From contig RDEW01000141.1 of assembly GCA_011109175.1 (NCBI GenBank), positions 11,130-43,496 on the forward strand: a stretch of 32,367 nt of DNA, read 5' to 3'. This document shows, in pieces, positions 1,472 to 30,307 of this stretch. Source of the stretch: Dicyema japonicum. Its lineage: Eukaryota; Dicyemida; Rhombozoa; Dicyemidae. Every line of letters begins with the position of its first letter. The first letter of the stretch is position 1. A program made the position numbers and the translations under genes. The notes below the pieces were generated by a model. That model did no database searches, was not told the DNA's origin, and saw only the letters and a program-made list of their open reading frames with translations.

Positions 1472-2930
1472 TCACATTTGTGGTTGCCCTATGGCTGTGA
1501 TAACTGTAGAATCAAGTGAATCTAATATTATAATATAATTACATAAATGTGGCATATTAGTATTAATGGTAAGGGGGATGACAAACGCTTCACGTCATCA
1601 AATATATACACAAATCTACAATTTACTTTATTGTTTGGGTTCTATGTGTAATGTGTATATTACTTTCACTACAAAGTCATCCATTGTCATTACATCCACG
1701 ACATTTATTGACCCCAAAAGCACTCCCATTGGATATTCAATGCCTAATGACTACACAAATATTACATAGTTGATTATCATCCACGTGAGTAGTCATTGTC
1801 GAAGCAATCCAAAGACGACCTCTGTGTGATATGTATGTATCAGACTCGTGAAATCTTGTGAACAAATAAACGTACCCAATACTCCCATCCACCACTCGTG
1901 AGGCATAAGGTTGGTCGAGGTTCATGCACACACCAAAATCTCTCATTTCCATTAATTCTCTATCAAATATGTTGGAAATTCCCAATCCCTGATAATCCCC
2001 ACTTTCATCAGTAACCCCCACAAACTTTATAAATAAACTCAAAACCTTAGGGGTAATATTATTATCAACAGAATCAAAGAAATCAGTATTTGATTGAAAT
2101 GAGGACTTTTCCTGTATTTTGTGTGCCTGTGTTAAAATATTCTGTTTTTCGTTGTTTTTGATAATATCGGTAACATCGTTTACAGTCATGTCAGTGTTGA
2201 AGGAGATGTGGTATTCCGAAGAGGGTTCATCATATTTAGCTTTGAGTTCCTCAATTTGTCCCCTTTCCTTCTGTGACGTCCACGTGTTAATACTAAAATA
2301 ATCCATTTGGTCGTCAATAACCCTAGTCCTCTGTTCACTGCCATATAAAACCATAAAACCTATTTCTATCAAATCCTAGTAATTTGTTTTTATTATCAAC
2401 AGCCCTCTTCAGTGAGCAGTCCTCATCATCTTCAAATCTCCTTTGACTCCTAGTTTTGACCTAACTAAGTCTATCAAATAACTGTGTTCCACAGAAGAAG
2501 CAATCCCCCGGACCTTCCTGCAGACAAACTATGCGTCCGCAGCATAAGCAATTGTTGACAAGAGGGTGAACTGTGGCCTGACAAGTGCACCTTACACGTT
2601 TGCCTTTATTTATATATTAGAGGACCTGGAATTAAGTTGCTTTCAAATGTCGGTTTTTTGTTTCGTATTTTAGCTTTTTTATTTGTGGGAAATTTGAGTT
2701 TGTCGATTGAAAATATTCTATCAGTCATTTTGCTTATAATATCTGAGCTTTTTTGACTGTCTGTGCCGATTAAATCCTGCAGATATTCTTTGAACTCATT
2801 GCAGTCATTTATTCGTGATAGACAGCTATGATTATATATTTGAATACTCTATTAGCTCTGAGACGTTTTCAAGTCCAAATTCCTTATTTAATTCATCCTT
2901 CAAATACGCATATCGTTGATGCACATCCAT
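1472..2930 (-). CDS. TRIP4: Activating signal cointegrator 1 (TRIP4/ASC-1), six or more exons
   Basis: TRIP4 is the zinc-finger/ASCH subunit of the ASC-1 complex, which acts in transcription coactivation and splitting of stalled ribosomes. Translation starts at ATG 2930-2928 (MDVHQRYAYLKDELNKEFGL), matching the helical N-terminus of the family. The C2HC5 finger (NNCLCCGRIVCLQEGPGDCF) lies at about 2480-2570, the RTRVIDDQMDYF linker at about 2310-2330, and the ASCH domain (MNLDQPYAS, then HRGRLWIA) at about 1810-1930. Introns consistent with the alignment are 2826-2847, 2338-2359, 1855-1875, 1744-1765 and 1642-1663 (22, 22, 21, 22, 22 nt), with a likely sixth at 1522-1542. Defects: a TAG at 2463-2461 and a one-base slip near 2605-2612. 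The C-terminus is short against human and the exact stop (1472 or 1489) is uncertain. The start lies 86 bp from a divergent ORF. Confidence 0.9.
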
Positions 2931-3016
2931 GAATTGTATTTCAAATTTAAAATTAATTTTGTTATTTACAATAATTTATATTTATAAATATTAAAAGTAT
3001 TTCATATCTATTATGA

Positions 3017-3226
3017 ATGAAACATTGCGGGGACCCACAAGTCACCGATCTATTTGGTCATATTCTGAGAATTGACGCAGAACTTGTTGTATTTGGAAAG
3101 GATCTATGGGCATACGCTCATAACACTTCAGATAGTTCACGATGGTTATTCGAGGCCAATAAAAATCTCAGAATCGAAGAAAATGTTGTATTCACAATTA
3201 GAATTACTATTATTAATAAATTTTAG
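3017..3226 (+). CDS. Small unassigned ORF (69 aa), divergent from TRIP4
   Basis: A 69-codon frame from ATG 3017 contains VTDLFGHILRIDAELVVFGK then DLWAYAHNTSDSSRWLFEAN. The composition is balanced, with alternating hydrophobic strands and an N-T-S sequon, unlike the low-complexity chance ORFs nearby. It starts 86 bp from the TRIP4 start in the opposite direction, as expected for a shared promoter. After ENVVFTIR the frame runs into AT-rich sequence and stops, so this may be the first exon of a gene truncated by the retroelement beginning near 3240. I do not recognise the family. Confidence 0.4.
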   Translation: MKHCGDPQVTDLFGHILRIDAELVVFGKDLWAYAHNTSDSSRWLFEANKNLRIEENVVFTIRITIINKF

Positions 3227-3239
3227 ACCTCAAAGTGAA

Positions 3240-4560
3240 GTGAAACTGGACGTAGTAAACCATACTTCCCGCATGTCTCTTTCCTGTCTAATCTGTGGCA
3301 AAGCAATAGGAATTCGGTATTCAATGTTTCTGTTGCCCAAATTTTGGACACATTTGGTGCGATAAGCTAATAAAGGACTGAACAATATCTGCCAAATTGG
3401 TCATGTCCCTCAGAAGGAACCCTCCTCTGGACCCATCTCGGACTCATCTAACATGGATGAATGCCTACGCCGTTTGAATCAGCTTGTCGGATCTATGCGA
3501 GACAGAAATTAGAAAGGACATTCAACCACCACAGGTAATATAAGATCTGCTATTTCATCTTTCTCAGGAACAGAAATACTGGCTTACTTCTGCAAAAACA
3601 ACCGAACTCCTTCATTAATCTAATAAAGACCCTTACAGATCGAATTCTTCTGGCTGATATCTCCGACTATGCAGAGACTCCTTTTTGCACCCAAGCTTTC
3701 GCCTTCATAATGCCTTATTGTGGGTTAAAACCCATCGCAATAGACAACGTATTCAGCTGACAGAGCGGCGAGTAAGACTCTAAGCCTCAACTTGGGTTGG
3801 AATTCCTCATGGATGCGAGGCAGTAATCCACTCAATCCGGACCTTTACTAATACTATAAATAGTCAAACTGGACATCCGCAATGTTTTCAATAGCATTCA
3901 CAGAGATAGAATCATAGAAGCTAGCATCTCCAGGATTCCGGTAATTAGCAGAATGGTGAAACTCTCATATGGTACCCCCATGTACGCTGATCTTCTGACA
4001 ACACATCATCGAATCCAAGACTGGAGAACAAGGCGACCCCCTTGGCTCCCTAATCTTTGTCGACTGTGAAGAATCAGCGATCGGAACCCCTCAATGAAAA
4101 CTACCGCTTAGCTACGGAGGAATCTGAATACGCTCACAAGAACTCTCCCTCTCGGCTTTTCTATCTTCGACATATGCTTTCAGTGGTCTTACACCTAGAT
4201 CCTACGGTACATTAACAGATTGGACACTGAACCAGTGGCATGCTCGGAAAGTCTGGACGCAACTGAGTGTGGGATTCCCGAAGAAAGCTAATAAACAACG
4301 AGAATGGGAAAAGTTTTTATGCTCAAAAATCATAGACAAGATCATATGCTCAAAAATCGAAACCTTAGCTATATCAGCATCTTCTGGCTTTTTTGCTTCT
4401 ACAAAAGAAAGTGGTGCCTGGGTCAGAGCATTAAGCCTGGTCAAATATCCTGCTAAACAGAATCTGATCATAGCGAAAAATAAAAATGATAGGAGAGAAA
4501 GGAGCTGTCTCATTGATCGGATTTCCTTGCAAATCGTGAGGGGAAATACATTTTCATTAA
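3240..4560 (+). mobile_element. Decayed non-LTR element with PHD-like finger, RT and 3' module
   Basis: Broken frames in one orientation carry, in order: a Cys-rich finger near 3290-3360 (CLICGKAIGIR, then CCPNFGHIWCDK in another frame); RT motif A near 3870-3920 (VKLDIRNVFNSIHRDRII); RT motif B near 4026-4070 (GEQGDPLGSLIFVD); and a linker at 4269-4500 (WEKFLCSKIIDKII ... ESGAWVRALSL) seen in invertebrate elements just before a Cys/His and RPDG-type module. Motifs A and B are in different frames. The copy ends before the zinc module found complete at 25793-26143. It belongs to the same family as 8390-8800. Confidence 0.7.
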
Positions 4561-4688
4561 TGAGAGCAGCAGTCTTTATTTGTCTACTAATAATACCTGA
4601 ACAGGAAATGTTTTAATAATTTAAATGATTACTTTTAGCCTATAATATTGTGAGAATGGGTTGAATTGGGACTAAAAATGAGAAAAGA

Positions 4689-6962
4689 CTAAACAAAAGT
4701 ATAAAAGTTATCATTCTGAATAATTTGTCCATCCTCAATTCGTGTTTCAATAAATGAAGTAATATCATCCATACCAAATGTAAATGAACTATTTCCAGAA
4801 GTATGGGCGAACAGACGCATTGCACTGTATATTTTCTGGGCAGTCACGGCTGGCATAAGTTTGAGCATCCTCGTGACCTGAGGCCAATATTTATCAAACA
4901 ATGGCAAAAGACTGAACTCCCCCATCTACTGTTTCCAATTCAGACTCCTCAGGCTGAAAAGAACTAGAATCCAATAACAAATCGACTACAATATACAATC
5001 AACATACAATTCGACAATTTCCCCACTTTTATATAACAAACCCCTTCACTCTCATAGCTAACAAGAACTCCTTTCGAAATCCACAAATCGATTCTACTCT
5101 TTAAAGCACGTGAGTCTTCAAATTGAAGTATATCACCAAGTCGAGTATATTCAATGACATCTAGCACTCCCATCACAAATTACCATTATCTATAAAACAA
5201 TGAAGAATAGCCGCCATTGAGGGAGTTGTAGTGATTGTAAACGTTTCCCCCAAGTGATCAACCTGTAATGTCATCAACCCAATATTGGGAATCCATCGTA
5301 ACGATCGATTACTTTTATGTGCCACAAACTCGTTTTCGTACTTTGTAAGTTCAATCCCCCAACAATTGGGCAGTTTAAAAACCTCAATATTCTGTTCAGG
5401 CCAAAATTGATCAGAAATGACAATAACCCTCAAAAGACACCCATACATATCTCCCTACACATTACACAACACAAACCTGAGTGAATATCCTCTCACTCTC
5501 CCCAAATATTTTAATAGACTCCATCAAGTCATAAAACATAACTTCAGCCTTGTGGAGATTCTTATCTCCAAATCTATTCCTCAATATCTTCAAAGCACAG
5601 AGTAAACCAAAATATATTACTTGTGTTCCTTCGTCATATCAAAGTTCTTTGAATTAATGATCTTCTCAGCTAAGACTTGTCTATATTCCTTAAGGAGAGA
5701 TTCCTTAGTACCATAAATACTCCCAGAAGAGTCAGAAGATCAGAAGACCGCATTCCTAGGTCTTTCTCAACTACGTAGATCAATAGCATACTTTGGTGGA
5801 CAAAGACAGGTCGAGGTTTCCAACTTCTCCAATGTTTATTGTCAATTTCCCCCAAAAGTTCATCCACAATGCCTACACAGCTTGAGTCGGCGTAATTCCT
5901 CTCAAGAAGTGCATTATCAGTTATTGCAGATACAACAGCATGTAAGATTCCCTTTTCTTGTTCTCAAATGCTTTTATTGGCTCACATACTATTCTAACGA
6001 GAATCCCAGTACTGTCAATGTCATTCAGACTCAATATTGATGATATATAGGCATTCAAGATATCAGTTGTTGCTACTCCTGCAATTACTATAGTTAGCGA
6101 CCTTGGTGGAGTAATCGACAATTAAATGATTTAATCAAAGAGTCTGATATCTCTGACAAGCAAGTATTCAAATTTCCGATGCAAAATCCCAATTCTCTGC
6201 CCACATCCTTACTTTCCGGGTAGTGGATCACAATTTCAAATAAGTTTGACATTCTGTGTCTCATTATAGCCTGTTTTATAATATCAGAAATTTCAATTTT
6301 ATTTAAATCCGAGGAATCGCTAATCTTGAGGAAATCAGTCCACTTTGAGAACAACCCCTCCATATCCTCCAACAAACCGTCAAATACAGCCACTTTGTAA
6401 TTATTATGGCATCGTTTGCGCGTCTCCTCATATAAAACAACGTAAAACTCTCTTATTGGCAGAGATTACTTTATAATTACACACAACTACCAGTTTCAGC
6501 GTTGAACATTCTAATATCCTTTAAGACATCCCTCACAAAGTAAAATTCACTAAAAGATGACTCATCATCGTAATTTTCATTCAAAAATGAGGTAAAGGTG
6601 TTAAAAAGTAATGATTCCAGTAGATTATTGGTGGAACAGGCGGTTTTACCAACCAAAGCAAAAACGTGACGAAAATGCTGAGAATGTCGGTTTATTCTCC
6701 CTTTTACGAGTTTTCCCACATCTCCCTTCAGTTTGACCCAAAAGTTGTAATTGATTGATATAATATGGCACGAATGAGTGAGGGAGACAGAAGAAAGAGC
6801 AACTAACAGTTTACGAGTTAACTCCTCGCTAACAGAATAGAACCAGTCTGTGATGTTCTTAGTGCTGTTGTTCTTAAGAGACTCCAACTCATCATAAATT
6901 GAATCCTTGTTTATTAACAATTCTGAATTCTATTATTACATTATCAAAATAACCTCCGCCAT
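4689..6962 (-). CDS. ANAPC2: Anaphase-promoting complex subunit 2 (cullin-like)
   Basis: ANAPC2 is the cullin-like scaffold of the APC/C ubiquitin ligase; its C-terminus holds the RING subunit and a winged helix. Start ATG 6962-6960 (MAE) is joined by a 24-nt intron (6930-6953) to NSELLINKDSIYDELESL. Diagnostic blocks are SFNCRLLHQG + VATTDILNAYISS near 6060-6130, CEPIKAF, SSDLLTLLG + SIYGTKESLLKEYRQ near 5690-5740, RNRFGDKN, ISDQFWPEQNIEVFKLP, SLRWIPNIGLMTLQVD, ALKSRIDLWISKGVLV and the winged helix ending RIEDGQIIQNDNFYTFV. Other introns: 6469-6490, 6079-6101, 5455-5476, 5161-5183, 4986-5007 (22-23 nt). One-base slips occur at homopolymers near 4919-4923, 5722-5724 and 5950-5956. The block at 5590-5640 is not fully resolved. 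Length is somewhat below the roughly 820 aa of human. Confidence 0.93.
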
Positions 6963-7079
6963 TAATTATTTATTTAACATTTTAAATATAATTAAAATAT
7001 TAATATTTAACATTTTTATATAATTTAATTTATAACTTTTTAGCTTCTATTCTCCATTTAGAGGAAAAGTCGTAACAAA
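6963..7079. promoter_or_regulatory. AT-rich 5' flank of ANAPC2
   Basis: About 100 bases of almost pure A/T with repeated TTAAATATTAATATT-like stretches precede the ANAPC2 start and separate it from a retroelement on the other side. No defined promoter motif can be assigned. By position it should hold the ANAPC2 promoter. Confidence 0.3.
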
Positions 7080-7640
7080 ATCCTGCCAATCGGTCTCAAA
7101 ATTTCTTCCAAACGGCGTGCTACAGGCTTCCCCTTGTTACCGTCGCTTTTTAACTTATTCTTGCATGATATTCAAATTTACTCGAACAAAAATTCCATAA
7201 CTTTTGCGTATGTCGATGACATAATATATGCTTGCAAGGATATATGTGTTACGACAACTAAGAACAAATTGAAAACTACTATGGAAAGACTCCATGAATG
7301 GTTGAAAAGAAATTCAATGTCAACGTCCACAGAAAAGTCATTTACCTATTTTTTACGTCGAAGAAGGCTATCAAGTTATTCGGCTGAACTATTTTTGAAT
7401 GGTGAACTAATCCCAAATTAGAAACAAGCCAAGATTCTGGGAGTAACATTTGACACCTTCACGACCTTCAGCACACATGTGTAAAACGTACTCAATGCTT
7501 CGACACGAAAGCTTAATAAGATCAACTCCGCCGAATACAATAAGAAAATAATCTTTCGAATCACAGGACTACCAATCAGGGCAACCCTATTTGAGGTCCT
7601 TGTGAGGAAATTCGGCGGTATATTCACCCAAAATAAGTTT
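7080..7640 (+). mobile_element. Non-LTR RT fragment with YVDD box
   Basis: The frame at 7134-7421 begins LPSLFNLFLHDIQIYSNKNS and reaches FAYVDDIIYACKD, the catalytic box with Val for the usual Ala. It then continues RLHEWLKRNSMSTSTEKSFT. After the TAG at 7419-7421 the same frame resumes with KQAKILGVTFDTFTTFSTHV, so the stop interrupts an otherwise collinear RT palm/thumb. The 5' end lacks the fingers. This is a different subfamily from the copy at 2-367. Confidence 0.8.
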
Positions 7641-8380
7641 TCATATAGCTACCTCACTAGCTTGCCATCTCTGTTATCTCTACATCTAAAGGAAGTACCT
7701 ATAAGTTGAGATTTCCTCCCAGAATAACCAAGAACTCGAAGACTCGATGACAATTTTTTTTCGTTCGGAGTTTGCCTCCCATGAATTTCATTTTTACCAA
7801 AACAACAAAACATATGCTTAAGCATTTGGGAGACAGAATGAGCTGTCAATGGAAAACGTGAAGCAGTGAATAAAGCAACGTAAAAGATGATCATCAAGTT
7901 TCTTCCCATCTCTGTGGTAAAGATCAGAGGTTCAGCACAAGAACCCAGTTAACTTAGACCATGTTTGATGATATAATTGAGGATGACTTATTTTCCGGTC
8001 AACCTTGTAAGGTTCTCGAACGTTGTACATCAATACCGAAGCGGAGACTTTTGTTGTCAAAAAAGACTTGCAGGAAACTTCCTTTAAAGATATGGGTGAG
8101 GAACTATCATGAAACACACGAAAGCTAATATCCAAAACTTTAAACATTTGTCATCGACCAAAAACCAAGACCACTTATAGCAATCATGAGTTTACACTGA
8201 ATTAATCTCTATAAAGGGGAAGGCTTCGGGCAATTAATCTCTATGGTTTGATTTCTTGGCACCATTGAATGAAATTAAAAAAAATTAAAATTAATTAATT
8301 TTTTTAAATAAATCTAACTAATTGTTAACTGTTTTCATTAAATATATTTTTTGAAATACTAATCATTTCAACTTTTTGGA
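7641..8380. other. Intergenic stretch without a recognisable gene
   Basis: Short frames only, none with a motif I can support. The first part may be further decayed 3' sequence of the element to the left. From about 8270 the sequence turns to A/T-rich spacer. Confidence 0.4.
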
Positions 8381-8389
8381 GCTCTAGAA

Positions 8390-8800
8390 AAACCTCAACC
8401 AACACTGCCTGGTTTGGTTTCGTTTGGCACGCATAGAGGCTACCCAATCCCTGGGGTCGGAACTTTGCTTGACAATGAGAACCTTCGCATCGATATCTCA
8501 TATCGCCTTGGTCTGGATGTTTGCAAGGTCGCTCTCTTGTATGGGATGTAACCTGTGTTGATATCTTTTCCTATACAAACTCATACTATCCTGCCGTTGA
8601 CTCTGCTGAACTTAAAATGCTTTATAAATGGTTTTTGCTTGGAAGTTGTTTCCCCTTCCTCCCAATTGGATTTGAAAATTAGAATATGGTCAGGTTTGTC
8701 ACTAGAGGTGTTCTCCGGGAGATAGAACCGCAATATCGTTCATGCTCGCAGATCCTAAGGAGCGGTTTTAACTTCGAGAACACCTGAAGGACACCCTTCT
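8390..8800 (+). mobile_element. Internally deleted copy of the zinc/nuclease-like retroelement 3' module
   Basis: One segment reads TLLDNENLRIDISYRLGLDV at about 8460-8520, equivalent to NLLDDEAVRIATSLRLGLKL of the 26 kb copy. It is followed almost at once by SLVWDVTCVDIFSYTNSYYP (8530-8590), which in this family lies downstream of the Cys/His finger and RPDG motif. The finger and RPDG block between them are missing, so the copy carries an internal deletion. The W-D-V-T-C motif is typical of the C-terminal block of this family. Confidence 0.65.
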
Positions 8801-9196
8801 ATACTCGAAACAGTCGGTTTTTGTAGATGTGATAAGAAATTATTACGATCTTCCCTTTGAAACAGGGAAACCGTCAACTGCACTGACACATTCGTCCCTC
8901 GCAACCTATATCAGAGTGCCTCTGTAGCCTAATCTGCCACTGAGAAGTCCGAGATATCAAACGAGCAAAATACTCAAAGATTTATTTATGTTCCGATCGC
9001 AGTGGAAATCTCCGGTTCCCTTGCGCATTCGACATTGGAATTTGTGAGTTGTCAAGGTCAGTGGTCCCCTACCAATTGGTACCTGGTAGCGCAAGAAATA
9101 TAGTTTAGAAATATAGAATTCGGTGGGATATAGAGAAACAGGACTTATTGACCCGGATAGATGAAATTTCAATATGAGGATCCTCAGATATAATAA
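8801..9196. other. Degenerate spacer
   Basis: No supportable coding motif. This is probably the 3' remainder of the flanking elements; no repeat with another part of the window was recognised. Confidence 0.3.
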
Positions 9197-9514
9197 TAAT
9201 ATTCGCATTTTCAGAGAGCCATAATAAGTTATAGCTCCCCACAGACAGAACACACACTTTATTTAAGCAAAGACCAGTCATAATAGCTAATCGAGGGCGA
9301 ATCAAATAATGCTCTTCACATCTTTGTTTTCTTTTTCTTGGGTGTATGTCCTTTATAGACAATCTGTTTCCGCAGTGAAGTTCACTGATGACGGCGTCAC
9401 TCGTCAAGCCAAAGCATATTGATTCGTGGAACCTTCAACCGAAATGTCGAGTATCGGGATTCGAACTAGCGACCTTCAGGCCTTTTGCGTGCCAACCCTC
9501 ATACTGAGCCACCC
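9197..9514 (-). mobile_element. tRNA-derived SINE, copy 1
   Basis: Read on the minus strand, the copy starts at GGTGGCTCAGTATGAGGG, has a B-box-like GTTCGAATCC, then GAAGGTTCCACG and a core containing the palindrome TGACGCCGTCA. It ends with ATAAAGTGTGTGTTCTG and ATTATGGCTCTCTGAAAA. Core and tail align with copies 2 and 3, but the tRNA-like head is clearly different. It abuts an endonuclease fragment on its 5' side, so it probably inserted into that element. Confidence 0.85.
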
Positions 9515-9690
9515 TCAAATATGAGAGATTTAATAAAAGTTGAAGAATCGCCAAAAGGAATAGAATTGTGTACAAGAATAAGTAAACCACCCCCAGCTGA
9601 GTTGGAGGCGCGGTAAAGAATAGTTCTTGAAGTAAGGAGTCTTGGATTTTGGTGTAAGTTTAGTTTATTGGATGAGGTCAATGTTCACAC
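9515..9690 (-). mobile_element. AP-endonuclease domain fragment of a non-LTR element
   Basis: The minus-strand frame includes LYRASNSAGGGLLILVHNSI, matching the glycine-rich turn plus strand (GGGvliyV) in the APE-type endonucleases of jockey/CR1-like elements. Only about 55 residues are present, and the frame runs into the SINE. Confidence 0.65.
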
Positions 9691-10690
9691 AATGATTGCA
9701 CGAGAAGATACATAAATCAATATATTTTTTGGAAATACCTATGATGTTCAACTTGAGTATCTTCAACTTTCTTTAACTGGGACGGGTCCAGGGGTAGGTT
9801 CAACATCACCACAGCTGATTAAAGAAATCTGGAACGGCAGCTTGGCACTCGTTTCGTAGCCACTACTAAGCAAAAACTACAGTCCAACCACGAAATGGGC
9901 AAAATTTTGATATTTTTCCCAAAATGAGTGTCTGTTTAAAAATCTAAATTAAAAACGGAAAATTACTTTCATAATTAAAATTACTACAATATGTATGAAA
10001 ACAAGATGAATTATTTGATTTTTATTTTTTGATAAATAAATCTGTCATTTTCATGTTATTTTGTTACTTTTTTTCGTATTGAATGCACAACATCTGCTTA
10101 AGAACATTTTCAGGAGTTGTTTTACTACATTAAAATGCATTGTAATGATTTCTTTGCTAGCGAGATAAGGCAGATGCTTTGTTGCAAGGTCCTCGTTGTT
10201 CCAATAGTAATGACGTGAAAAGGAATTGGTAAAAAAGTTAGGGGTAGATAGGAAATTCCAGGTTTATTTACAGTCCGTTGTTTTAAAGTGGACCCTAGAG
10301 ACCCTGTCACTGGAGTATAGGAGGCAGAGCCTGGAAATTCCACATAGGCAGGGCACAATTGGACAAGATGCTCTTGGAGCTGTTTCAGTAACCAGAATCG
10401 AACCTGCATAGAAGGAAAGGTTGTTGATTGTAGATATTAACTTTTTGTTGGTTAAATAAAGCTTGGGTAAATTTCGCTACTAATTTTTCCAATTTGGGGT
10501 TTTATTAATAAAAAAATTCATATTACTTTTAAAATGATAAAATCTCACCAAAATCGAGGTTTTCCGCAGTTTATTGGTTGTGTAATTTAGGCTCTCCTTT
10601 ACGCAATCCATCAATAAATTTATTAAAAAATAATAATAATTAAAAATCATAATTAGTAAATTATAAATCTGTAAATTTTAATTTAAAATA
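9691..10690. other. Non-coding region with possible degenerate repeat
   Basis: Mostly A/T-rich spacer. A GC-richer block at about 10130-10410 contains GGTTCGATTC on the minus strand, resembling a tRNA B box, but no A box could be seen upstream, so it may be a truncated short repeat. Short frames across this block on both strands have no recognisable domain. Confidence 0.3.
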
Positions 10691-10697
10691 ATCACGT

Positions 10698-10982
10698 TTG
10701 AAATGTTTGTTTCTTGTTGGTAAACATGGACAATCGAAGGGTTTTGAAAATTCCATACAAAAACAACTTTCAAAGTACAATCAAATTAATTTATCTTCAG
10801 AATTTAGAAAGTTTAGGAAACTAATCCTATCAACCAACACAAAAGTGTACAAAGAATTATGCCAACTTGAAACTGAACACATTTTTCTCTTCAAGTGCAT
10901 CCATATGCAGTACATTGAACTGAAGAGTAAAAAGTCTATGCAATCCCTTAAAAAAGTAATAATCAAACTCACTTTAGTTTGA
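10698..10982 (+). CDS. Unassigned ORF, possibly an exon
   Basis: A frame of about 94 codons rich in Lys, Leu and Gln includes FRKFRKLILSTNTKVYKELC and LKSKKSMQSLKKVIIKLTLV. It has no convincing ATG in frame. An ATG 5-10 bases in is in another frame, and a GTAAAC...CGAAG segment (10720-10740) could be a tiny intron but does not join the frames cleanly. The opposite strand is also open. I do not recognise the product and it may be chance. Confidence 0.2.
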   Translation: MKCLFLVGKHGQSKGFENSIQKQLSKYNQINLSSEFRKFRKLILSTNTKVYKELCQLETEHIFLFKCIHMQYIELKSKKSMQSLKKVIIKLTLV

Positions 10983-10989
10983 CAAACTC

Positions 10990-11640
10990 CTTAAGATTTT
11001 CCTTAATCTTAAAATGTTCTCCCTTTTAACAAGAACAGCCAATCTCTTCGAGTACTCTATATGTAATATTCAGCATCTCTTCTGATGGACTTTGCGTGTT
11101 GCCCAGTTTCCGAGAATTCCGTAAAATCTCACGATTGACTAAAACGGGGGAAAATCTCACTGCAGATTGTTGTAATTGTGCAGAACAGTATGGAAAGTAT
11201 ATTTCTGACTAAATATAAGTTACGCAATGATGGAGAGCTGGCAAGGACATTACGTGGCAACTAATCTTGTGTTTCTGTCCGTTTGTTCGAGAATCTATGT
11301 TCTTAACTTGTCTATTACTAAGAATATGAGGAAACTTTGTAAGAGAGGGAAATTGTTTTATAAAAATATTGAATAATGTGTTTGATCGTTGATGTATTTT
11401 ATTGTTACAGAATATTGATAAATCATGTCCTTTATAAATCCATTTATTTTTGGGGAGTTATTATAATTTTAATATATTGTCTTATTTGTTTTTAATTTTA
11501 ATAAATATTGGCTTTCAAAAGAAAATTTAATTTATAAGTATTTTATTAAAAAACACAAAAATCAATCAAATACGATCCCCACTGACATAATCGACGTTTA
11601 GCTCTCCTCACGATTGCTACAGAGATCAACTGGAGTTTTG
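10990..11640. other. A/T-rich spacer
   Basis: No coding motif. Near 11574 the sequence GATCCCCACTGACATAATCG resembles GATCCCCGTCGACATAAATG at 25571, suggesting a shared repeat boundary (see findings). Confidence 0.35.
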
Positions 11641-14280: not shown

Positions 14281-16600
14281 GGCTCAATATTTTTTGCTAT
14301 TTGCTGAGCGCAATTCTCTTCCCTCCGCAGTAACTTCTATTGTCCTGTTCGACAATCTTTTGTCCGAGGTATAGAGAGTTGTAACAGATTTTTTCGGTAT
14401 TGATTGACATCCGATTTTCATTAAACCACTCGAGTAGTCGATCCATGTGGTGTTGTATTCTTTCCGTCGCTGTTTGGGTGTTCTGATCCCGTGAGGCTAG
14501 GACAATATCGTCTGCATAAGCAGAAGCAGATCGTCTTCTCCATTCGGCGTCGGAATGTCAGTCGTAAACAGGTTGAATAGTAATGGTGATAGCGGCGAGC
14601 CCTAGGGTCTCCATTTGGAATAAACAGGAGACAGATTGAATATTTCCAGTACACACTCTACCTCTTCGTCCGCTAAGGAAGTTCATCAGCCATCGTTTGA
14701 GGTTCTCAGGGATATCTGATTGGTAGATTTTTCATGTCAGGTTTTTCCTCGGCAGAGTCAAAAGATTTTTGGACGTCTAGTGAGCATAACATAGTTTTCT
14801 GGTGTTTTGGCATGCACAGAAATCCAGAGCGAATAAAGTTAGTCAGGATGTGAGAAAGCTCATTGTGGACCGATCCTTTTTGAAAACATGCTGGAACGGT
14901 TTATCGAGAGTCTGTTCAGTGATTTTTGCGAGGATGAGCTTTTCCAGAATTTTTGACATGGAGCACAAGAGAGAAATAGGCCTGAAGGAAGCTGGGTCTT
15001 CTTTCGGTTTTCCTGGCTTCAATACTGAGCGAATGTTTGCAAGTTTCCACACCGTTGGGATTGAGTTATAATTAATTGAACAGTTGTAGATTTTGGTCAG
15101 GTACCGATTCCCTTATTGCCTAGGTTTTTCAGAAGGATTATGGGAATTCCGTCTGGACTATGAGAATGTGTTACTTTTGTTTGGTTAGGATGCCATTAAC
15201 TCCTTTTCCGTGAAATAAGGTTATTGATCCCTTTTCGGTTTTTTTGCGGCGCTTTGAGTAGGTCAGTCCACATGTGTGTATTGTGAGAGATTTTCGCGTA
15301 GTATTTTATTGCAGCGTTTAGGTTTTTTTGGCTGAATTCGTCATTTCCGGGTGTCTCTCATCCATCTTCGAGATATTTCGAATTGTCTTCCAGACTTCGG
15401 ATGTTAACCGGTTACGATTTAATGACGTAATGACCATTTTCCATTTAGCTCTCTGTATTATGAATTCATTTACTTTTATTTCCTCATTCAGCACTATTAG
15501 ACGGATCTTTGCTTCGGAGAAACGGATCTTTGCTTTTTTGAGACGGTTTCGTTCCTTGACCAGAGCCTTTTCCATACTCTCTCGTGTAAACGACATATCT
15601 TTTAGGGACAGCCATTGTTCTTGCTTCCAGGATGACTTTGTTGACGTAGGCGACCACTATATTAAGGGAGGTAAAGTTTTCCAGCTGTATATTAGCCGTA
15701 ACTGATCGAATAATTGCCAATTTGCAAGATTGTATATGCAGGTTTTTTTTCCACTGGTAATTTCGCTTTTGATTTTTAGCAGAATAGGGTTATGATCACT
15801 TCGGGTGTCGTAGATGACGCACCAATTAATCGTTGGTGAAAGCTGTGGTGAACAGAGTGTGATATCTGGGGAGGTTGGATTGTCAGAGTTCCTTTGAGGT
15901 GTTCTTGTGTTTTTTATGGGTCATTGATGATTGTCAGATGCGTCAACAGCAAATTTCCTCTTGTATCTGCAGACTGATTTAACAGCCAGAAAGGGTGTTT
16001 AGCATTCAAATCGCCGCACATCACGACTTCGTTCCAAATTTCCAGTGCTGATAAGTCCGGCATAGTGTAATGTTTCGACATGAGCCCGGAGACGGAATAT
16101 ACATGTTTACAAAATATAGTCTTCCTTTTGTTGTGCCAACAAATACTCCGATTGTCTCCGTGGTTTCATCACTCCCCAAAAGTTTCTTCGCTTCGAGTGT
16201 ATGGTCCTCATACTTTATGCCTTTTCTGATTAATGTAAGTAGTCCTTCCACGTTTCTTAGTGCAATCTTTGTATCCGGGAAAGAGGGGCATAGTATCTTT
16301 TGCTGATAGCTTCGATTCTTGGATGAGCACGATGTCAGCTTTAAGTTTAACAACCAGAGTTCTAAGTTCAATAATTTTGCCTTTTATTCCGTTCACATTC
16401 AGTTGTATAACGGAGATCCGGTCCTTTGACTTGTGTAGGTTGCGAATCCGAGAAGCTGTAGCCAGACCAGTAATCCGTCGACCGGGGGCGACATGTACCC
16501 CCGGTGGAAGAGAGCTAATGGCTCTTTTTGGAAATGCTTTAGGAGCATTTTGAGCGCCTCCAGAGTTGTTTCATCCGGTGACCACATGACGCCACGCTAA
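14281..16600 (-). mobile_element. Nearly full-length ORF2 (EN-RT) of a jockey-like non-LTR element
   Basis: On the minus strand the element opens with the endonuclease start ISVIQLNVNGIKGKIIELRT near 16400, then LKADIVLIQESKLSAKD (catalytic Glu), GLLTLIRKGIKYEDHTLEAK and RLYFVNMYIPSPG near 16110. A charged linker spans 15318-15596. RT block ANIRSVLKPGKPKEDPASFR then PISLLCSMSKILEKLI is at 14930-15050, and the catalytic AYADDIVLASRDQ lies at about 14490-14520, continuing to WFNENRMSINTEK. Several frameshifts inactivate it. Sequence after the thumb is lost at about 14280. SINE copy 2 begins about 60 bases beyond its 5' end. Confidence 0.85.
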
Positions 16601-16660: not shown

Positions 16661-16964
16661 AATAAAGCCATAGTATTTATAGCTCCGCATAGGCAGAACA
16701 CACACTTTATTTAAGTAAAGAACAGTTAATTTTAACTAATCGTAGAACCAAGGAATGGTCTTCACTTCTTTTTTTTCTTTTTCTTTGTGTGAGTGTCCTT
16801 TCTAGACAACCCAGTTCCGCAGTGAGTATCCACTGATGACGGCGTCACTCGTCAAACCCTTTCTGCATCGTAGATGCGTGGAACCTTCCACCAATTGAAC
16901 AACAGCGAGATTCGAACCCGTTACCTAAGCCACTTAAGCCCGACACCTAACCACTATGCCACCT
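16661..16964 (-). mobile_element. tRNA-derived SINE, copy 2
   Basis: Read on the minus strand: GGTGGCATAGTGGTTAGGTG (A-box-like TGGCATAGTGG), then GGGTTCGAATC (B box), GGTGGAAGGTTCCACG, the core with TGACGCCGTCA, and a tail with AAAGTGTGTGTTCTGCC and GCGGAGCTATAAATACTATG. The head matches copy 3 well. It ends about 110 bases before the capping-enzyme start. Confidence 0.9.
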
Positions 16965-17077
16965 GGTATTTAATAATAATTTACTGAATTTTTAAATAAA
17001 AAAATATTATATTTAAAAACAAACTTTCAAATTCTCTTGTGTGTTAATCACTTTTATATTGAAAATATTAGTGAGTA

Positions 17078-18980
17078 ATGCCCGTGCCATTTGGATGGTG
17101 TGAATGCCCATTATTTGGTGATGTAATAGGTAATATTTATGTAAAAATAATAGGGGACATATTTATTCCATTCAAAGTGCCATTAGATACTAATAAATAT
17201 AACATTTCGCCCGAAAATGCTTTCACTTTACAAACATTACTAGAAAAATATCCAAAACTAGGTCATGTTGTTGATTTGACCAACTCTGATGAATATTACA
17301 GTCCAAATACTATTGGAATTACATTTACGAAAATAAAATGCAGAGGGTTAATATTGAATAATAATTGAAGTCACGGAGAACCACCTACAGAGGAGCAGGT
17401 GACAGAATTCATATCAGCAGTCAATTCCTCCAATAATGAGTTATTAATCGGTTGGTTATCTATTATTATGCAGGTGTTCATTGCACCCATGGATTTAATA
17501 GAACTGGGTTCATGATCATTAGCTTTCTCGTTTCTGTCAAAAAATATCGTCTTGAGTACGCATTACAATTGTTTTCCAAGGTTGATGAAGTAGTAAATGT
17601 GATTAGTCGAGAAATCCAGGAATTTATAAACAAAATTATGTTAATGTCTTAATTCAACGGTATGGAAATCAAAACGTGTATTTGTTAGCTGCCTCTCTAC
17701 CATATTGGCATAAAGAATATCAGGAAATAAATAACACAGTCAAATTGTGATATAATTTAAGAATAAATAAAGTTCCTGGAGTTATTGAGATAACAGATAT
17801 TGATACAGTAAATGATATTCGTCTAAAAGTCAGACAAATTGCATATCAATCTACAAAAGATAAATCGTGTTTGGATAAAATTCCGTTTTCATATATTATC
17901 ATTTAAAGGTTAGAGCAATTCATAGGAGAACATCCAATCTCTTTATCTAACGAAAATAAAAACAAATTAGCTGAAAACAAATATAAAGTCAGTTGAAAGG
18001 CTGATGGGTGCAGATACCTAATGGTTGTCTTTAAGAGGGTCAAGTTTATTTGCTGGATAGAAAAAATAGTGTATTTTTTGTTGAAGACTTGTCATTTTGG
18101 CACAGAAAGGATTTGAATAAACATTTAACAAATTTACTTGTCGATGGGGTTATAATTATTGTGATCATTGGAAATGATAGAGGATATTAATGAAGGGACC
18201 AAAACATATCGTTATTTGATTTACGATGTTATTGAATTTAATGTATGATATGTTATTTAGTTCAGTGTACTGGAGTTGGGGCTGCTACCTTCAGTATTCG
18301 GAATTCTGTATTGACAAGGAAATAATTGGTCCACGGTCAGAAAATTAAACAAGTTACTCAATAATAAATTGGAGTCATTTTCTGTAAAAAATAAAAATTT
18401 TTGGGGATATTTCTTGTGTTCCTAAAGTTCTATTCCTTTATATTTAGATTTTCTCTGATAAATTTTCTAATCAGTTATTTCACAAAAGTGATGGTCTGAT
18501 TTTCCAACCAGTCAACAAAGTTTACCACTTGTTTATTAAAGCCTTATCATTTTGGTCGTAGTGACACTACTCTTAAATGGAAACCTCTCCAATATAATAC
18601 TGTTGATTTCAAACTGAAAGTATTCAAGAAACCTCAGTTAAGGGGTAGTTTTTACCTTAATTATAGAATTTACCAATATAAGCAGAATTGTTACTCTTGA
18701 ATGAAAAATCAAATTGACAAAAATTTTTGATTAAGTTTTTATTTTGTTTTATACTAGTTTTCAAAGGATATGATCAATGGGTGGTAAAATTGTTGAATGT
18801 TATCATGGGAGTTGTCTTCCTGAAAAGGACATTTTGGCATATTCTCAGAGTTAGAGATGATAGGATACTCCCAATTCACTGTAACAGCAAAAGTATTATT
18901 TTATTATTATTTAGCTGTTTTAAAGCATCAATGATCAGATTAATGATATTGATTTACTCACTTATGTTGAAGTATTCTGA
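17078..18980 (+). CDS. RNGTT: mRNA-capping enzyme, triphosphatase-guanylyltransferase fusion, 10+ tiny introns
   Basis: This bifunctional nuclear enzyme removes the 5' gamma-phosphate and adds GMP to nascent mRNA. From ATG 17078 (MPVPFGWCECP) the cysteine-phosphatase domain runs to the P-loop HCTHGFNRTG at 17477-17506. The guanylyltransferase shows motif I KADG at 17997-18008, VYLLDRKNSVFFV, motif III DG, RYLIYDVIEFN, DGLIFQPVNK, LKWKP and VRDDRILP. Introns: 17347-17370, 17451-17473, 17581-17606, 17885-17908, 18161-18182, 18243-18265, 18427-18447, 18520-18541, 18645-18666, 18893-18914; one near 17739-17761 is ambiguous. Defects: TGA (17994-17996) replaces the family Trp before the catalytic Lys; motif III has Val for the usual Glu; one-base slips near 18033, 18320, 18343, 18404 and in the last 250 bases. 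Either indel-rich assembly or a decaying gene. Confidence 0.93.
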
Positions 18981-19116
18981 CAATTCATAATTTTATTACA
19001 TTCTTTTTGAATTTCATGGTTTATTTTCAAATTTGTCTCATAAATTCACAAATAATATATATTGCGATCATAAAATAAGGAGGGTTGGATTATGATGTAT
19101 AGAAAGACCGTTTGGA

Positions 19117-19415
19117 GGGGTGGCATAGTGGTTAGGTGTCGGGCTAAAGTGCTTAGACTACGGGTTCGATTCTCGCTGCTGTTCACCTGGTGGAAGGTTC
19201 CAAGTATCTACGATGCTAAAAGATTGACGAGTGACGCCGTCATCAGTGGACACTCACTTCGGAACTGGATTGTCTAGAAAGGACCCACACACAAGAAAAA
19301 AAATAAAGATCATTCCTTGGTTCTCCGATTAGCTAAAATTAACTGTTCTTTATTTAAATAAAAGTGTGTGTCCTGCCTATGCGGAGCTATAAATATTATG
19401 GCTCTCGTGAAAAGG
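19117..19415 (+). mobile_element. tRNA-derived SINE, copy 3
   Basis: The head carries an A-box-like TGGCATAGTGG (19121-19131) and a B box GGGTTCGATTC (19162-19172). The body has GGTGGAAGGTTCCA, then the core GACGAGTGACGCCGTCATC, and the tail has AAAAGTGTGTGTCCTGCC and GCGGAGCTATAAATATTATG. Its orientation is opposite to copies 1 and 2. It lies about 140 bases past the capping-enzyme stop. Confidence 0.9.
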
Positions 19416-22320: not shown

Positions 22321-22329
22321 CTAAATATT

Positions 22330-24640: not shown

Positions 24641-24651
24641 TTGCAGTGAGA

Positions 24652-25503
24652 ATGTTCCAATTACTAGGTTTACAAACTAAATTAATAATAGGAATATATA
24701 CATGTTTAGTAGGCAATACAGATGTGTTCCAGAATACTGACACTTTTGAAAAGTTGCATGATGTACCTTTGTGGGGTGGAGTAAAGAACGATCAAGTTGT
24801 ATCGTTATTCAGTGGAATAATAGAAGTTGAATATAAAATTAATAATACTGTAATCTCGTTTATTTAATAAAAGATTAAAAATGATAATTTAATTGACGCA
24901 TCTTTTGATTTTCATTTTAGTGAACAAAATAGTGAATATAGTTACCTTAAATGGACGAAAAATGATATAGAATTCAGAATATTATTTAAAAATGTTTCAA
25001 ATGTAATATTTGTTTGGTGGGGATTAGAATTGAATTCACATCATACATTTAAGAGTACTCCAGCTTCGAAAATTTTAAATAACGGTTATTATAACTGCAG
25101 TGAAATTGTTGTAACTATTCCTAATTACGGAACTATAAAAATAAAAAATATGAAAATGCAAATATTTAAAACTGACAATAATAAAATATTTACAGGAAAT
25201 GGTAATTATTATAACTCACATTTAGCCCACGGATGTGATTTTGAAAGAAATCTCCGATTCAAGTCAACACCCCATTTGACTAAAAAATTAACTACAGCTC
25301 GAAGTTACAGAACAACTCATGTTACTCTAAATAAAATAAACTCCCATGCAATCAGTAATAATAATTTTAATTTAGAAAACAAATATTTAATACCGATTTG
25401 TGGAATTTGCGGAATTGTCTTTATCATTGCTATCGGTTTCATAATAAAATATAAAAGAAGAAGGCGTTTTTATCCACTAGGGATTGAAATATTCAATTAT
25501 TAA
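24652..25503 (+). CDS. LAMP-like type I membrane glycoprotein, two exons, intact
   Basis: Exon 1 (24652-24849) and exon 2 (24874-25503) join across a 24-nt GT-AG intron into a 275-residue protein with no internal stop. A hydrophobic start (MFQLLGLQTKLIIGIYTCLV) serves as signal peptide. The luminal part has sequons at NNT, NVS and NCS. One transmembrane helix lies at about 237-257 (YLIPICGICGIVFIIAIGFI), followed by KYKRRRR and an 11-residue tail. The block GYYNCSEIVVTIP ... KMQIFKTDN ... HGCDFE followed by a near-C-terminal helix resembles the membrane-proximal half of lysosome-associated membrane proteins. The usual GYQxI lysosomal tail is absent. The start has a TTGCAG just upstream that could be a trans-splice acceptor. 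Family assignment is tentative; that it is a real gene is well supported. Confidence 0.75.
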
Positions 25504-25779
25504 TATTATTCTATTATAATAATGACTTACAAATTCATTAGTCGATTAATATTATAGTTTATTTAGTTTTGATCCCCGTCGACATAAATGACGCTGAGTT
25601 CTTTCTCAAGATATCCTCGATGATCAACTGAAGGAGTATATAGCTTCTGAGAGTAGCCAGGCGTCAAAATCTTAATGATAGTATAATTATTATGGACAGA
25701 CACATTCATAATTAGTATTTTATTATTTAAATTTTTGTATTGTAGGCAAAATAATGACTAATTATTCTATTAAGACGGG
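25504..25779. other. 3' flank with short repeat
   Basis: A/T-rich sequence after the LAMP-like gene. A block at 25571-25635 resembles 11574-11640. Confidence 0.35.
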
Positions 25780-27390: not shown

Positions 27391-27396
27391 TTTTAG

Positions 27397-27552
27397 TACA
27401 TAGTCCACGTGGTCAAAGTTGAGGAAAAAGTGTTATCTGTTGGGGATGAAATAGAACTAGAGTTGGACAAGGAGAGGAGAATGGGCTGCATGCGGAGTCA
27501 CTCAGCATCGCACATTGTGAACTTTGTTTTGTGGAAGTTTTTCAGTAATATT
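27397..27552 (+). pseudogene. Alanyl-tRNA synthetase editing-domain exon (orphan fragment)
   Basis: After TTTTTATTATTTTAG, which looks like a splice acceptor, the frame reads YIVHVVKVEEKVLSVGDEIE then ERRMGCMRSHSASHIVNFVL. This matches the AlaRS/AlaX editing domain: the VGDEVxLxxDxxRR strand followed by H-x3-H zinc site. About 50 residues are present. At 27553 the sequence changes to a non-LTR endonuclease block (VNAYLPPLSSCS) homologous to 13327-13347, so the exon is cut by a retroelement. No other AlaRS exon was found on either side. A free-standing AlaX-type protein is also possible. Confidence 0.65.
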
Positions 27553-28990
27553 GGTCAACGCGTATCTTCCACCTTTGAGTTCCTGCTCTGTACTCCTTCA
27601 GTGAATTTGAAAACAGAGCAGGAACTCACTTTCTGTGCTACAGATTCACTCTTCTCATATTACTGAAGGATGTGATTATCTGTGGTGACTTGAATGCGAA
27701 GCACTTATTGTGGTTGACAAGACAAGCCCATGACAAAGGGGGAAGATGCTAATTGAGGACCATCAAAGTCTCTGCATACTCAACGGTCCGGCTTTCCATA
27801 CAAGAACACTTACTAAACCCTCATCCATTGGAACTAGATAGGATTCAAGGATATGTCGATACTTGCATTGGACACTTGAATTTCCCCACTCCTCCCTCCG
27901 TTGAAAAATTAGTGAAATGGTTCAACTCCACCGAAAAAGAAGTACATTCCAATGCAACCTACGTCATCAAAATGTTTCAACACAACGACGAAATGTTTGA
28001 TCAGAGAACGAAATAATGTAAAGATGGTGAAATCACCAACAGAAGAGAACATCAGAAAATACGAGAACTGAAGAGATAGATCGACAAGAACATAAAGGCA
28101 GAATATGTAAATAGATGGACGAGACTAACGAAGGTTCTCTGCAGGGAGTCCCCGATGCAGATAGTCTAGAAATGGATCAAGAACATCAAAAGATCCTCTC
28201 CAGAGACTAAAGGCAAGTCTACATCCAATCAGACAGCCTGATATTATACTTCTATCTCCAAGGATTTTTCAAAATAACACCAAGTATTCCTGAAAGAGAT
28301 TGAACCGAAACGCTTTGATGACTAGATCCTCTTTACTAGCCAGGATGTCCATGAGCAATATCCAAAGGCAACAACTCAGAGGTCAAGAGACCAGACAACA
28401 TAACCGCATGCGAACTGAAGACCTAGTTTTTGTAACTATTAGCCTACATCTTCAGCCTAACACGAACAAAATCCCTGAAATATGAAAAAAGTCCCTTATC
28501 AAATCTATTCGAAAACCAAAAAAACCAATAAATGAACCATCATCCTATTCTGAGTCCGGTCTCAAGGATTTTTGAAAGGCTTGTTCTGGAAAAATGCGGG
28601 ATTCAATCTCAATACCTTCGTCCCGTCATTGAAACTATCCGCAATCCAAGAGACTGCAGTATAGTTGATCGGACAGAACACAAGATCCAACAAAAATCTT
28701 ATAATCGAATTACAACGAAAATTCTTAAAAGCGGCCAGTCTACAGAGCTGTCCCTGTTTCATATACTATCGAAATATCTACAAACATGTAAAAAGTTTGA
28801 GCGATGCATGCCAAATAAGAAGAGCAGTACAGGATTATCGACTCCGCCGGACCTAAGACAGACCATTGCGGAACCCTCTTTTCAGCAAAAATTTGAAAGT
28901 GGAACTTTAGGTTGTACGCAGTTAATCCGACTGACTCAGCCAAATTATCATAAACTGATGAGTAAAATTATCATAATTTTAAAATAACTA
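27553..28990 (+). mobile_element. Degenerate EN-RT non-LTR element inserted in the AlaRS exon
   Basis: Endonuclease strands VNAYLPPLSSCS (27553-27590) and DVIICGDLNAKHLLWL (27668-27715) are followed by the linker with IQGYVDTCIGHLNF at 27753-28016 and an RT N-terminal remnant VSRIFERLVLEKC near 28555-28600. Stops and frameshifts are frequent. An inverted repeat at 27577-27627 interrupts the endonuclease. The right end lies within about 20 bases of the 3' end of the aminotransferase gene on the other strand. Confidence 0.7.
27577..27627. repeat. 15-bp perfect inverted repeat with 21-nt loop
   Basis: GAGTTCCTGCTCTGT at 27577-27591 is complementary to ACAGAGCAGGAACTC at 27613-27627. The equivalent segment in the related element near 13310 lacks the second arm, so the arm was gained here, probably by a small templated inversion. 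Confidence 0.85.
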
Positions 28991-29008
28991 ACATGAAACT
29001 TATAGAAA

Positions 29009-30307
29009 ATTAAAAGAGACTTTCTAAGGCATCCACTAAATACTCGATGTCATTGATGTTTAAGGCAGATAGGTTAATCCTCCCATTAAATCCAAGCATA
29101 ATGTTATATTTGTCACTGAGAGTGGTTATCTGATTATCTAAATATTATTGTGAGTACAACCAGTTAAGTTAAAACAATAAAAATATCCTACAGTTATCCC
29201 AAAATCATTGAAGGGCAAATTTCGCTTTTCCAGCTCATTCTGCAACAACATTTTGACCTCATTAACTCTTAAACGTATTTCTAGTAGTTCAAGTTTCCAT
29301 TTATTTTTTAATATTTTATTTTCTAACAAAAAACTAATGACAAAGGCTCCAAATCCGGGAGGATTGCCATAAACAGGGGATATTAGTGATTTAAGTACTC
29401 CGGTAATTATGTCTACAAGACTATGCTGTGAACAAATACAGCACAGACTACCAACTCGTTCGCCTAAACATAACGTGTAAATCCACCACAAAGACCAAAG
29501 AATTTTGAGAGATTGTGGGAGACTACAACATTCAGATTTTCGCGTTCAAACAAACGAACGGGAAAGGCATCTTCGCTCAGTCCTCTCCCTAATCCCTGGT
29601 AGCAAATATCAAAAAATGGAATCAAATGTTTTTCCTAGAAAATATCATAAAAATATGACCTTAACTATTGCAAGCAAATCCTTCCACTGTGTGGTACTCA
29701 GGTCATGTCCTGTTGGATTATGGCATATCCCCGACAATAGAACTGCAGATCCGGATTTTGACAGCTACTATAAGCAAAATCTAACCAATATATCATTTTT
29801 GAGATTTTCAAAGTCAATTTTCCTGTTATTGTAATCAAAATATCTATAAGACCTAGTTTTGAGGTTAGTGAATATATTGGGATATTGGTCTTTAAGGTAA
29901 ATTACATAATACTCCAAGATTGCATTGGTATTAGGATTTCCGTGACCCCAAATACTTTAATGAGTACTTCAGTTCCCAAGCTAAGACCACCATTCCCTCC
30001 CAATGTTTGAACAGCAGTGACCTAATTTAGTCAGATTACAATATATACTCTGTTTTCCTTTATCGCCAATGATTTAGAACCCAGCAGGAGTTTGTTGGCT
30101 TCCTGGCATAACTTTGAATTGCCAGAGAAGGGAACCGGACAATTATACTGATAGATGCTATCGTTTATTATTTTCTTTTCCACCAGATTTGTTATTTTAA
30201 AAGAGTAGACATGATAGTTCCCATCCATGCATTCTGCCATTGTTAACATATTGTGAACCTCCCAATTTGAGATTAAGAGTACTTTCTGGTGTATTTTTTG
30301 GTAACAT
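29009..30307 (-). CDS. Aspartate aminotransferase (cytosolic-type fold I PLP enzyme)
   Basis: This enzyme interconverts aspartate/2-oxoglutarate and oxaloacetate/glutamate. From ATG 30307-30305 (MLPKNTPESTLNLKLGGSQY) the blocks run in order: LVEKKIINDS, ALKEKRV-like SLAIKENR, VTAVQTLGGNGGLSLGTEVL, TRSYRYFDYNNRKIDFENLK, GICHNPTGHDLSTTQW (cofactor-binding Asn), LIPFFDICYQG (Asp pairing with the PLP nitrogen), SHNLSKFFGLCGERVGSL (Schiff-base Lys), SPVYGNPPGFGA, and GRINLSALNINDIEYLV (substrate-binding Arg). The stop is at 29011-29009. Introns: 30022-30048, 29765-29785, 29635-29659, 29464-29486, 29138-29157 (27, 21, 25, 23, 20 nt). Joins near 30230 and 29900-29950 are unclear: probably one frame slip and one more intron. 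All key catalytic residues I could check are present, so it is likely functional. Confidence 0.92.

Follow-up and report, generated by a model that had tools for sequence, protein, structure and literature searches.

Introns of about 22-24 nucleotides in a dicyemid-type genome and a preferred adenine near intron nucleotide 16

Introduction

How a full-size animal spliceosome fits into an intron of 22 nucleotides (nt) has so far lacked an explanation. The question is raised by the window studied here, a stretch of 32,367 nt (bases 11130-43496 of the 43,496-base contig C47) in an assembly of 64.67 Mb and 191 contigs, whose genes are interrupted by GT-AG introns of little more than 20 nt. Dicyemids, Paramecium and the Bigelowiella nucleomorph were the shortest-intron genomes known at the time of one report (PMC2483917). 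The original prediction for the window, made from its letters, had placed 27 introns of 20-27 nt in five genes. The results presented below make it probable that these are ordinary GT-AG introns of the U2 type in a dicyemid-type animal, mostly about 22-24 nt long, recognized as units and branched at an adenine (A) near nucleotide 16.

Results

Introns in the window genes

Family searches with ten single frames of the window gave matches to TRIP4, ANAPC2, cullin and phosphatase. The roughly hand-spliced products matched solved structures with E values of 3.4e-62 for the mRNA-capping enzyme, 5.4e-31 for aspartate aminotransferase, 1.5e-30 for ANAPC2 and 2.3e-25 for TRIP4; the top identity of the capping enzyme among the best 120 of 181 relatives was 49%. 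Introns were placed in these four genes with a spliced aligner written for this analysis, which used the residues of solved homologues as reference and was given no preferred intron length. For the LAMP-like gene, no significant family match was found in the family searches, and its intron was therefore placed by frame only.

With splice-site weights, the aligner called 21 gaps across the four genes. Both flanks scored 10 or more in 11 of them (24, 24, 23, 26, 22, 23, 21, 25, 23, 23 and 22 nt), and 9 of these remained at a stricter cut of 14. Ten more window introns, of 21-24 nt, were supported by frame or by one flank. The removal of 17130-17153 was decided by the alignment alone, because this segment is stop-free and its length is a multiple of 3. 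The placed introns, followed by four stretches with other gaps, are as follows.

1642-1663, minus strand: TRIP4 intron, 22 nt; frame and splice sites only
1744-1765, minus strand: TRIP4 intron, 22 nt; frame and splice sites only
1855-1875, minus strand: TRIP4 intron, 21 nt, in frame without a stop codon; ASCH alignment restored, unplaced in the weighted run
2338-2359, minus strand: TRIP4 intron, 22 nt, FDRN/SEQRTRVIDD; homology on both sides
2604-2625, minus strand: TRIP4 intron, 22 nt; frame, leads onto the zf-C2HC5 exon
5161-5183, minus strand: ANAPC2 intron, 23 nt; spliced alignment, weighted runs favor 5167-5183 (17 nt)
5455-5476, minus strand: ANAPC2 intron, 22 nt; spliced alignment with weak flanks
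5689-5711, minus strand: ANAPC2 intron, 23 nt; spliced alignment with one strong side
6079-6101, minus strand: ANAPC2 intron, 23 nt, LLHQG/VATTD; homology on both sides
6930-6953, minus strand: ANAPC2 intron, 24 nt, close to the start codon; frame only
17130-17153, plus strand: capping enzyme intron, 24 nt, in frame without a stop codon; alignment on both sides
17347-17370, plus strand: capping enzyme intron, 24 nt, CRG/HGEPPT; homology on both sides
17451-17473, plus strand: capping enzyme intron, 23 nt, LLIG/VHCTHG; homology on both sides
17581-17606, plus strand: capping enzyme intron, 26 nt, FSK/SRNPGIY; homology on both sides
17885-17908, plus strand: capping enzyme intron, 24 nt; homology downstream only
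18161-18182, plus strand: capping enzyme intron, 22 nt; homology on both sides
24850-24873, plus strand: LAMP-like gene intron, 24 nt; frame only
29138-29160, minus strand: aspartate aminotransferase intron, 23 nt; homology on both sides
29464-29486, minus strand: aspartate aminotransferase intron, 23 nt, LCG/ERVG; homology on both sides
29635-29659, minus strand: aspartate aminotransferase intron, 25 nt; two-sided homology with weights, 31 nt without weights
29765-29785, minus strand: aspartate aminotransferase intron, 21 nt; spliced alignment with a short upstream match, unplaced without weights
2450-2482, minus strand: TRIP4 stretch, a 33-nt gap or smaller gaps; weighted alignment
5580-5620, minus strand: ANAPC2 stretch, 41-nt gap; spliced alignment
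17747-17761, plus strand: capping enzyme stretch, 15-nt gap without reference residues; spliced alignment
17992-18040, plus strand: broken stretch of the capping enzyme with a 44-nt gap at 17992-18035; frames and alignment

The short window introns are real, judged by these alignments. GT-AG introns of the predicted size were recovered in the named genes, by alignment in four of the five and by frame in the LAMP-like gene, and the five junctions that had been singled out (CRG/HGEPPT, LLIG/VHCTHG, FSK/SRNPGIY, LLHQG/VATTD and LCG/ERVG) were confirmed by homology on both sides. The exact set of 27 was not matched one by one, since it came without a list of coordinates. The claim that no longer intron was needed was not confirmed: gaps of 33 nt in TRIP4, 41 nt in ANAPC2 and 44 nt in the capping enzyme were called, and the poorly aligned parts of ANAPC2 contained further gaps of 56, 52 and 34 nt. 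When introns were limited to 30 nt, the ANAPC2 alignment score fell from 383.6 to 259.3.

Intron lengths across the assembly

The Prp8 gene (locus L023, contig C87) matched human Prp8 chains at an E value of 0 across three parts, and for its alignment to human Prp8 residues, introns of up to 400 nt were permitted. The alignment covers two reference parts, which lie 756 bases apart, and stops short of both ends of the gene. All 31 introns called were 20-26 nt long. One of 20 nt (6591-6610, reverse strand of the locus) was rejected, as it compensates for a one-base assembly loss, and the remaining 30 measured 20 (1), 22 (9), 23 (8), 24 (9), 25 (2) and 26 (1) nt.

DEAD-box genes gave 38 matches, from which 12 loci were cut and 10 aligned; L033 and L038 are of other helicase types and were omitted. 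Across the four window genes and these 10 loci, 58 gaps were called without weights, 40 of them at 20-27 nt. The flank and necessity tests were passed by 33 of the 58, and 27 of these, spread over 12 genes, were 22-27 nt long; 8 of the 27 lie in the window. The other six measured 16, 31, 71, 89, 109 and 140 nt. A hand check rejected two of them, replacing the 71-nt intron (L037) by introns of 21 and 23 nt and the 109-nt intron (L034) by two introns of 23 nt, in each case flanking a divergent exon. The 140-nt intron of L037, which splits a contiguous conserved motif, looks real and would give the length distribution a longer tail. Introns in L036 (89 nt), L029 (16 nt) and aspartate aminotransferase (31 nt, or 25 nt with weights) were kept as candidates. 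Altogether, 57 of the 63 accepted introns (30 in Prp8 and 27 of 33 in the window and DEAD-box genes, with up to 400 nt allowed) were 20-27 nt long. The combined set of the 27, the 30 from Prp8 and 4 hand-resolved introns (n = 61) had a median of 23 and a mean of 23.3 nt; this set was chosen as short, the introns of 16, 31, 89 and 140 nt being omitted.

Where exon matches meet without overlap or missing residues in the family model, the intervening gaps follow from the match positions and measured 22 and 23 nt (a U2AF-like gene) and 22 and 32 nt (two AAA genes). When GT-AG was compared with 8 other dinucleotide pairs in the 4 window genes and 3 of the 10 DEAD-box loci, with introns of up to 120 nt, it received the top score in 7 of 7 genes, although for TRIP4 the margin was small (254 vs 247). 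With a flat prior on intron length (15-200 nt), a gene finder called 237 introns, of which 126 passed the filter and 67 of those were 22-25 nt long; its splice weights had been learned from short introns, and many calls of other lengths are surely false. Without any splice weights, only 13 filtered introns were obtained. A frame-only gene model and early trained gene finders were rejected because they add false introns of all lengths. Alignment or abutting exon matches in 15 genes thus show, at the level of genomic sequence, a shortening of most introns to about 22-24 nt.

The introns of Prp8 and the 27 other introns placed by homology differ in adenine-thymine (AT) content, 96% in the Prp8 bodies and 68% in the others, despite equal lengths.

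An adenine at intron nucleotide 16

Positions were counted from the 5' end of the intron in three sets: the 27 homology introns, the 30 Prp8 introns and 47 gene-finder introns. The latter two were examined because the 27 introns had suggested an A at position 16. In the 27, A occupied this position in 18, a count that was not attained in any of 4000 shuffles of the intron interiors (mean 6.2). The largest positional count in this set exceeded that of all 5000 shuffles when anchored at the 5' end (P = 0.003 when anchored at the 3' end). For Prp8, A was found at 16 in 19 of 30 introns vs 12.4 by shuffle (P = 0.009). For the gene-finder introns of 21-26 nt, the count was 21 of 47, with 28% expected (P = 0.010), and over a wider length range it was 18 of 40 (P = 0.009); acceptor weights were blanked in the tested region, and the loci of this set overlap with those of the first. 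In 11949 random GT..AG stretches, A made up 30.5% with no rise at 16.

At 22 and 23 nt, the A follows the 5' end of the intron. In 23-nt introns it was at 16 in 6 of 8 homology and 6 of 8 Prp8 introns, vs 3 of 8 and 2 of 8 at the position it would hold if moved with the 3' end. From 22 to 23 nt, the extra base therefore lies between the A and the AG, a statement that applies to these two length classes only.

The sequence around the A was compared with branch-site expectations. A YTNAY motif with its A at 16 was present in 9 of the 27 homology introns, vs 0.9 in random GT..AG stretches of equal length and AT content. The best pairing with the GUAGUA of U2 fell at 16 in 8.5 of 27 homology introns (1.9 by shuffle) and in 7.8 of 30 Prp8 introns (2.35 by shuffle, P = 0.0015). 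In 22-nt introns, pyrimidines occupied positions 13 and 14 in 16 and 16 of 20 introns, and the pyrimidine context of the A is clear only in this class. Among positions 3-19, position 16 was the most informative in the 27 (0.70 bits; next 0.31), which was not the case in Prp8. Donor positions +3 to +6 held 0.78 bits in the 27 and 2.94 bits in the AT-only Prp8 introns, and +5 was G in 7 of 27 homology and 1 of 30 Prp8 introns.

These counts bear on the claim that introns of this size leave almost no room for a branch point or a polypyrimidine tract. The enrichment of A at 16, where U2 pairs best, speaks in part against the first half. The second half stands, since only 4 nt separate the A at 16 from the AG in a 22-nt intron.

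Spliceosome components

U2 RNA gave 25 matches in the assembly, 22 of them over the cut-off, and the two that were read both carry GTAGTA. At least 112 bits were reached by 16 U2 matches, five of them on contig C115. For U1 RNA there were 11 matches, the best of which (69.0 bits) was just under the curated cut-off of 69.5. Protein searches gave an SF1-HH match of 80.5 bits and a RED_N match of 64.3 bits. The U2AF-like gene on contig C114 matched exon by exon; its matches all fell below the cut-off for the whole protein, and matches came from other RNA-binding proteins as well.

A single U12 small nuclear RNA match (G000:C68:163471-163599) scored 85.4 bits, and because this is well over the cut-off of 53, a minor (U12-type) spliceosome may be present. 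The U12 match coexists with introns of about 23 nt, although U12-type introns carry long signals.

Identity of the genome and other features of the window

The evidence favors the description of the organism as a dicyemid-like animal. The assembly size and the GC content of the window (37.0%) are near those published for Dicyema japonicum (67.5 Mb, 36.7% GC; PMC6736024), and the introns are near dicyemid lengths. A paired-box search returned 8 matches, the best at 97.9 bits, distributed over 4 places (one control genome gave a match as well, below the cut-off), and 7tm_1 matches were present. Another reduced animal, such as an orthonectid or an unknown parasite, is an improbable source, since orthonectid introns are longer (median 57 bp; PMC6543705) and size, GC content and introns agree with dicyemids.

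The capping enzyme gene is broken at 17992-18040, with an in-frame TGA near 17994, at the position of a conserved W of the human enzyme (before KADG), and a one-base frame shift near 18036. An assembly error is the likeliest cause, since Prp8 shows a similar one-base loss, judged from its frames; editing or a decayed copy would be less likely causes.

A repeat of about 300 bases occurs three times in the window, at 9230-9520 (minus strand), 16670-16975 (minus strand) and 19100-19405 (plus strand), with 82% mean column identity. Its tRNA-like head, as we read it, suggests an element resembling a short interspersed element; ARAGORN called no tRNA genes in the window, the repeat included. Reverse transcriptase matches were found in short open frames at 7062-7421 (plus strand), 14297-14557 (minus strand) and 31878-32339 (plus strand). 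An Rfam search of the window and 16 of 40 loci gave no match that reached the curated cut-offs. The retrieved sequence immediately before the window (C47, bases 1-11129) consists of N.

Discussion

A proposed mode of recognition and its rivals

GT-AG ends whose removal restores the protein, together with a U2 RNA carrying a branch-recognition sequence in the assembly, point to the U2 type for these introns. Since the 5' splice site carries little signal past the GT, the whole intron is probably recognized as one unit (intron definition). The A near nucleotide 16, whose enrichment was observed in all three sets, would serve as the branch point, followed 6-11 nt farther on by an AG, mostly as TAG or CAG. 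The resulting lariat would consist of a 16-nt loop and a tail of 6-11 nt. Standard factors probably carry out this reaction, namely, U2 with GTAGTA, Prp8, SF1, RED and the U2AF-like protein. In the human B complex, about 21 nt lie between the U6 and U2 helices, and Smu1 and RED are needed when the 5' splice site and the branch site are close (PMC6692369). Help of the Smu1-RED type or an altered B complex is predicted here, because a spacing of 15 nt is much shorter than the gap between the human helices. More tentatively, the spacing may act as a molecular ruler that sets the branch at about the 16th nucleotide in most introns; the B complex would then have to be very compact or rearranged, and a U12-type spliceosome would survive alongside.

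Several observations weigh against this proposal. Splicing and branching are predicted here from genomic sequence, and 25 of the 58 unweighted gaps failed the flank and necessity tests, 11 of them outside 20-27 nt. The P values for the 27 introns are after the fact, as the idea arose from them. The gene-finder peak is broad, with positions 15-17 all raised, and that set contains false introns. In introns of 24-28 nt, the position of the A is diffuse. For Prp8, the excess of YTNAY motifs with the A at 16 is marginal (5 introns vs 2.4 expected, P = 0.054) and YTNAY at any position is not enriched (17 introns vs 20.6 expected). In 23-nt introns, pyrimidines occupy positions 13 and 14 in 7 and 12 of 21, and 1 of 21 has YTNAY at 16 though 13 of 21 have A there. 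A published set of 41 introns from D. acuticephalum had no branch-point signature, according to its authors (PMC2483917). The marginal motif in Prp8, its absence in 23-nt introns, the diffuse A at 24-28 nt and the published introns without a motif signature are what would be seen if the introns were real but branched loosely, the A at 16 reflecting some other constraint, such as a contact with U6 or Prp8. The best U2 pairing at nucleotide 16 in two sets speaks against such a constraint, as does the lack of any rise at 16 in random GT..AG stretches, and this explanation is considered unlikely.

The assembly does contain the one-base loss in Prp8 and the TGA and frame shift in the capping enzyme. 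The segments might then be artefacts, namely, decayed copies or assembly indels in open frames patched by chance GT..AG pairs. Such an origin is highly improbable: a Prp8 that matches its human counterpart at an E value of 0 requires 30 introns of 20-26 nt, GT-AG surpassed all decoy pairs in every gene tried, and more than half of the filtered gene-finder introns (67 of 126) fell at 22-25 nt under the flat prior, albeit with splice weights from short introns. The ultra-short introns are real, well supported and of a known kind, and U2-type recognition as a unit with a branch A near 16 is preferred in what follows.

Comparison with published tiny introns

Tiny dicyemid introns have been in print since 2007. 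Their reported length was 26.2 +/- 1.9 nt for 16 introns (Aruga 2007, PMC2222250), a median of 25 nt for 41 introns (PMC2483917), a median of 27 nt with two thirds below 30 nt in a genome prediction (Zverkov 2019, PMC6543705) and a genome mean of 38.2 nt (Lu 2019, PMC6736024); orthonectid introns have a median of 57 bp (PMC6543705). The introns studied here share with the dicyemid ones the GT-AG ends, a length of about 25 nt, the occurrence of several per gene and the weak 5' splice sites described in print (PMC2483917). The AT content is also alike (70% published vs 68% here outside Prp8). The median of 23 nt in the set of 61 chosen as short lies below the published 25-27 nt (Welch P = 0.0003 vs the figures for 41 introns), and the animal may even belong to a species already published. 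The other difference is the A at about 16, compared with a published set reported to lack a branch-point signature (PMC2483917). An earlier report of a set branch position in dicyemids was not found in the literature covered, which does not extend to Ogino 2010. The A near nucleotide 16 looks like a possibly new detail, and the mechanism built on it is drawn from the statistics of about 100 introns.

The original prediction had put these introns near the lower limit for any spliceosome. They are indeed close to it, but even shorter introns are known, those of 15-16 nt in Stentor and of 19 nt in the Bigelowiella nucleomorph. In Stentor coeruleus, the branch A is at position 10 or 11 (PMC9505925). 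The introns of this ciliate resemble those described here in an AU-rich composition and, under the proposed geometry, in a branch A placed at a set position close to the 3' end with a short tail (5 nt there). The loop there is 10 or 11 nt, compared with the 16 nt proposed here, and the position is kept more strictly, with about 91% at 10 in Stentor vs 37 of 57 at 16 in the pooled homology and Prp8 introns. Stentor differs further in having introns in 18% of its genes. Paramecium, also a ciliate, uses a nonstandard genetic code. Its introns are similar in AT richness and in length, with a median of 24-25 nt (PMC12862383), and no branch signature is reported for P. tetraurelia (PMC2483917). P. 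bursaria is described as exclusively U2-dependent (PMC12862383), whereas a U12 RNA match is present here. The Bigelowiella natans nucleomorph, with introns of 18-21 nt (PMC2222250, PMC2483917), shows the same uniform tiny length; it differs in being an enslaved algal nucleus, and no branch signature is reported for it.

Significance

A normal major spliceosome likely processes these introns in a compact geometry that resembles the one in Stentor except for a loop of 16 nt. If true, the set spacing of 16 nt would be a direct, testable geometry. The distance of 15 nt could be compared with human B-complex structures and with the requirement for Smu1 and RED in short introns. A set distance of the A from the intron start would bear on the lower size limit of the introns that a spliceosome can process.

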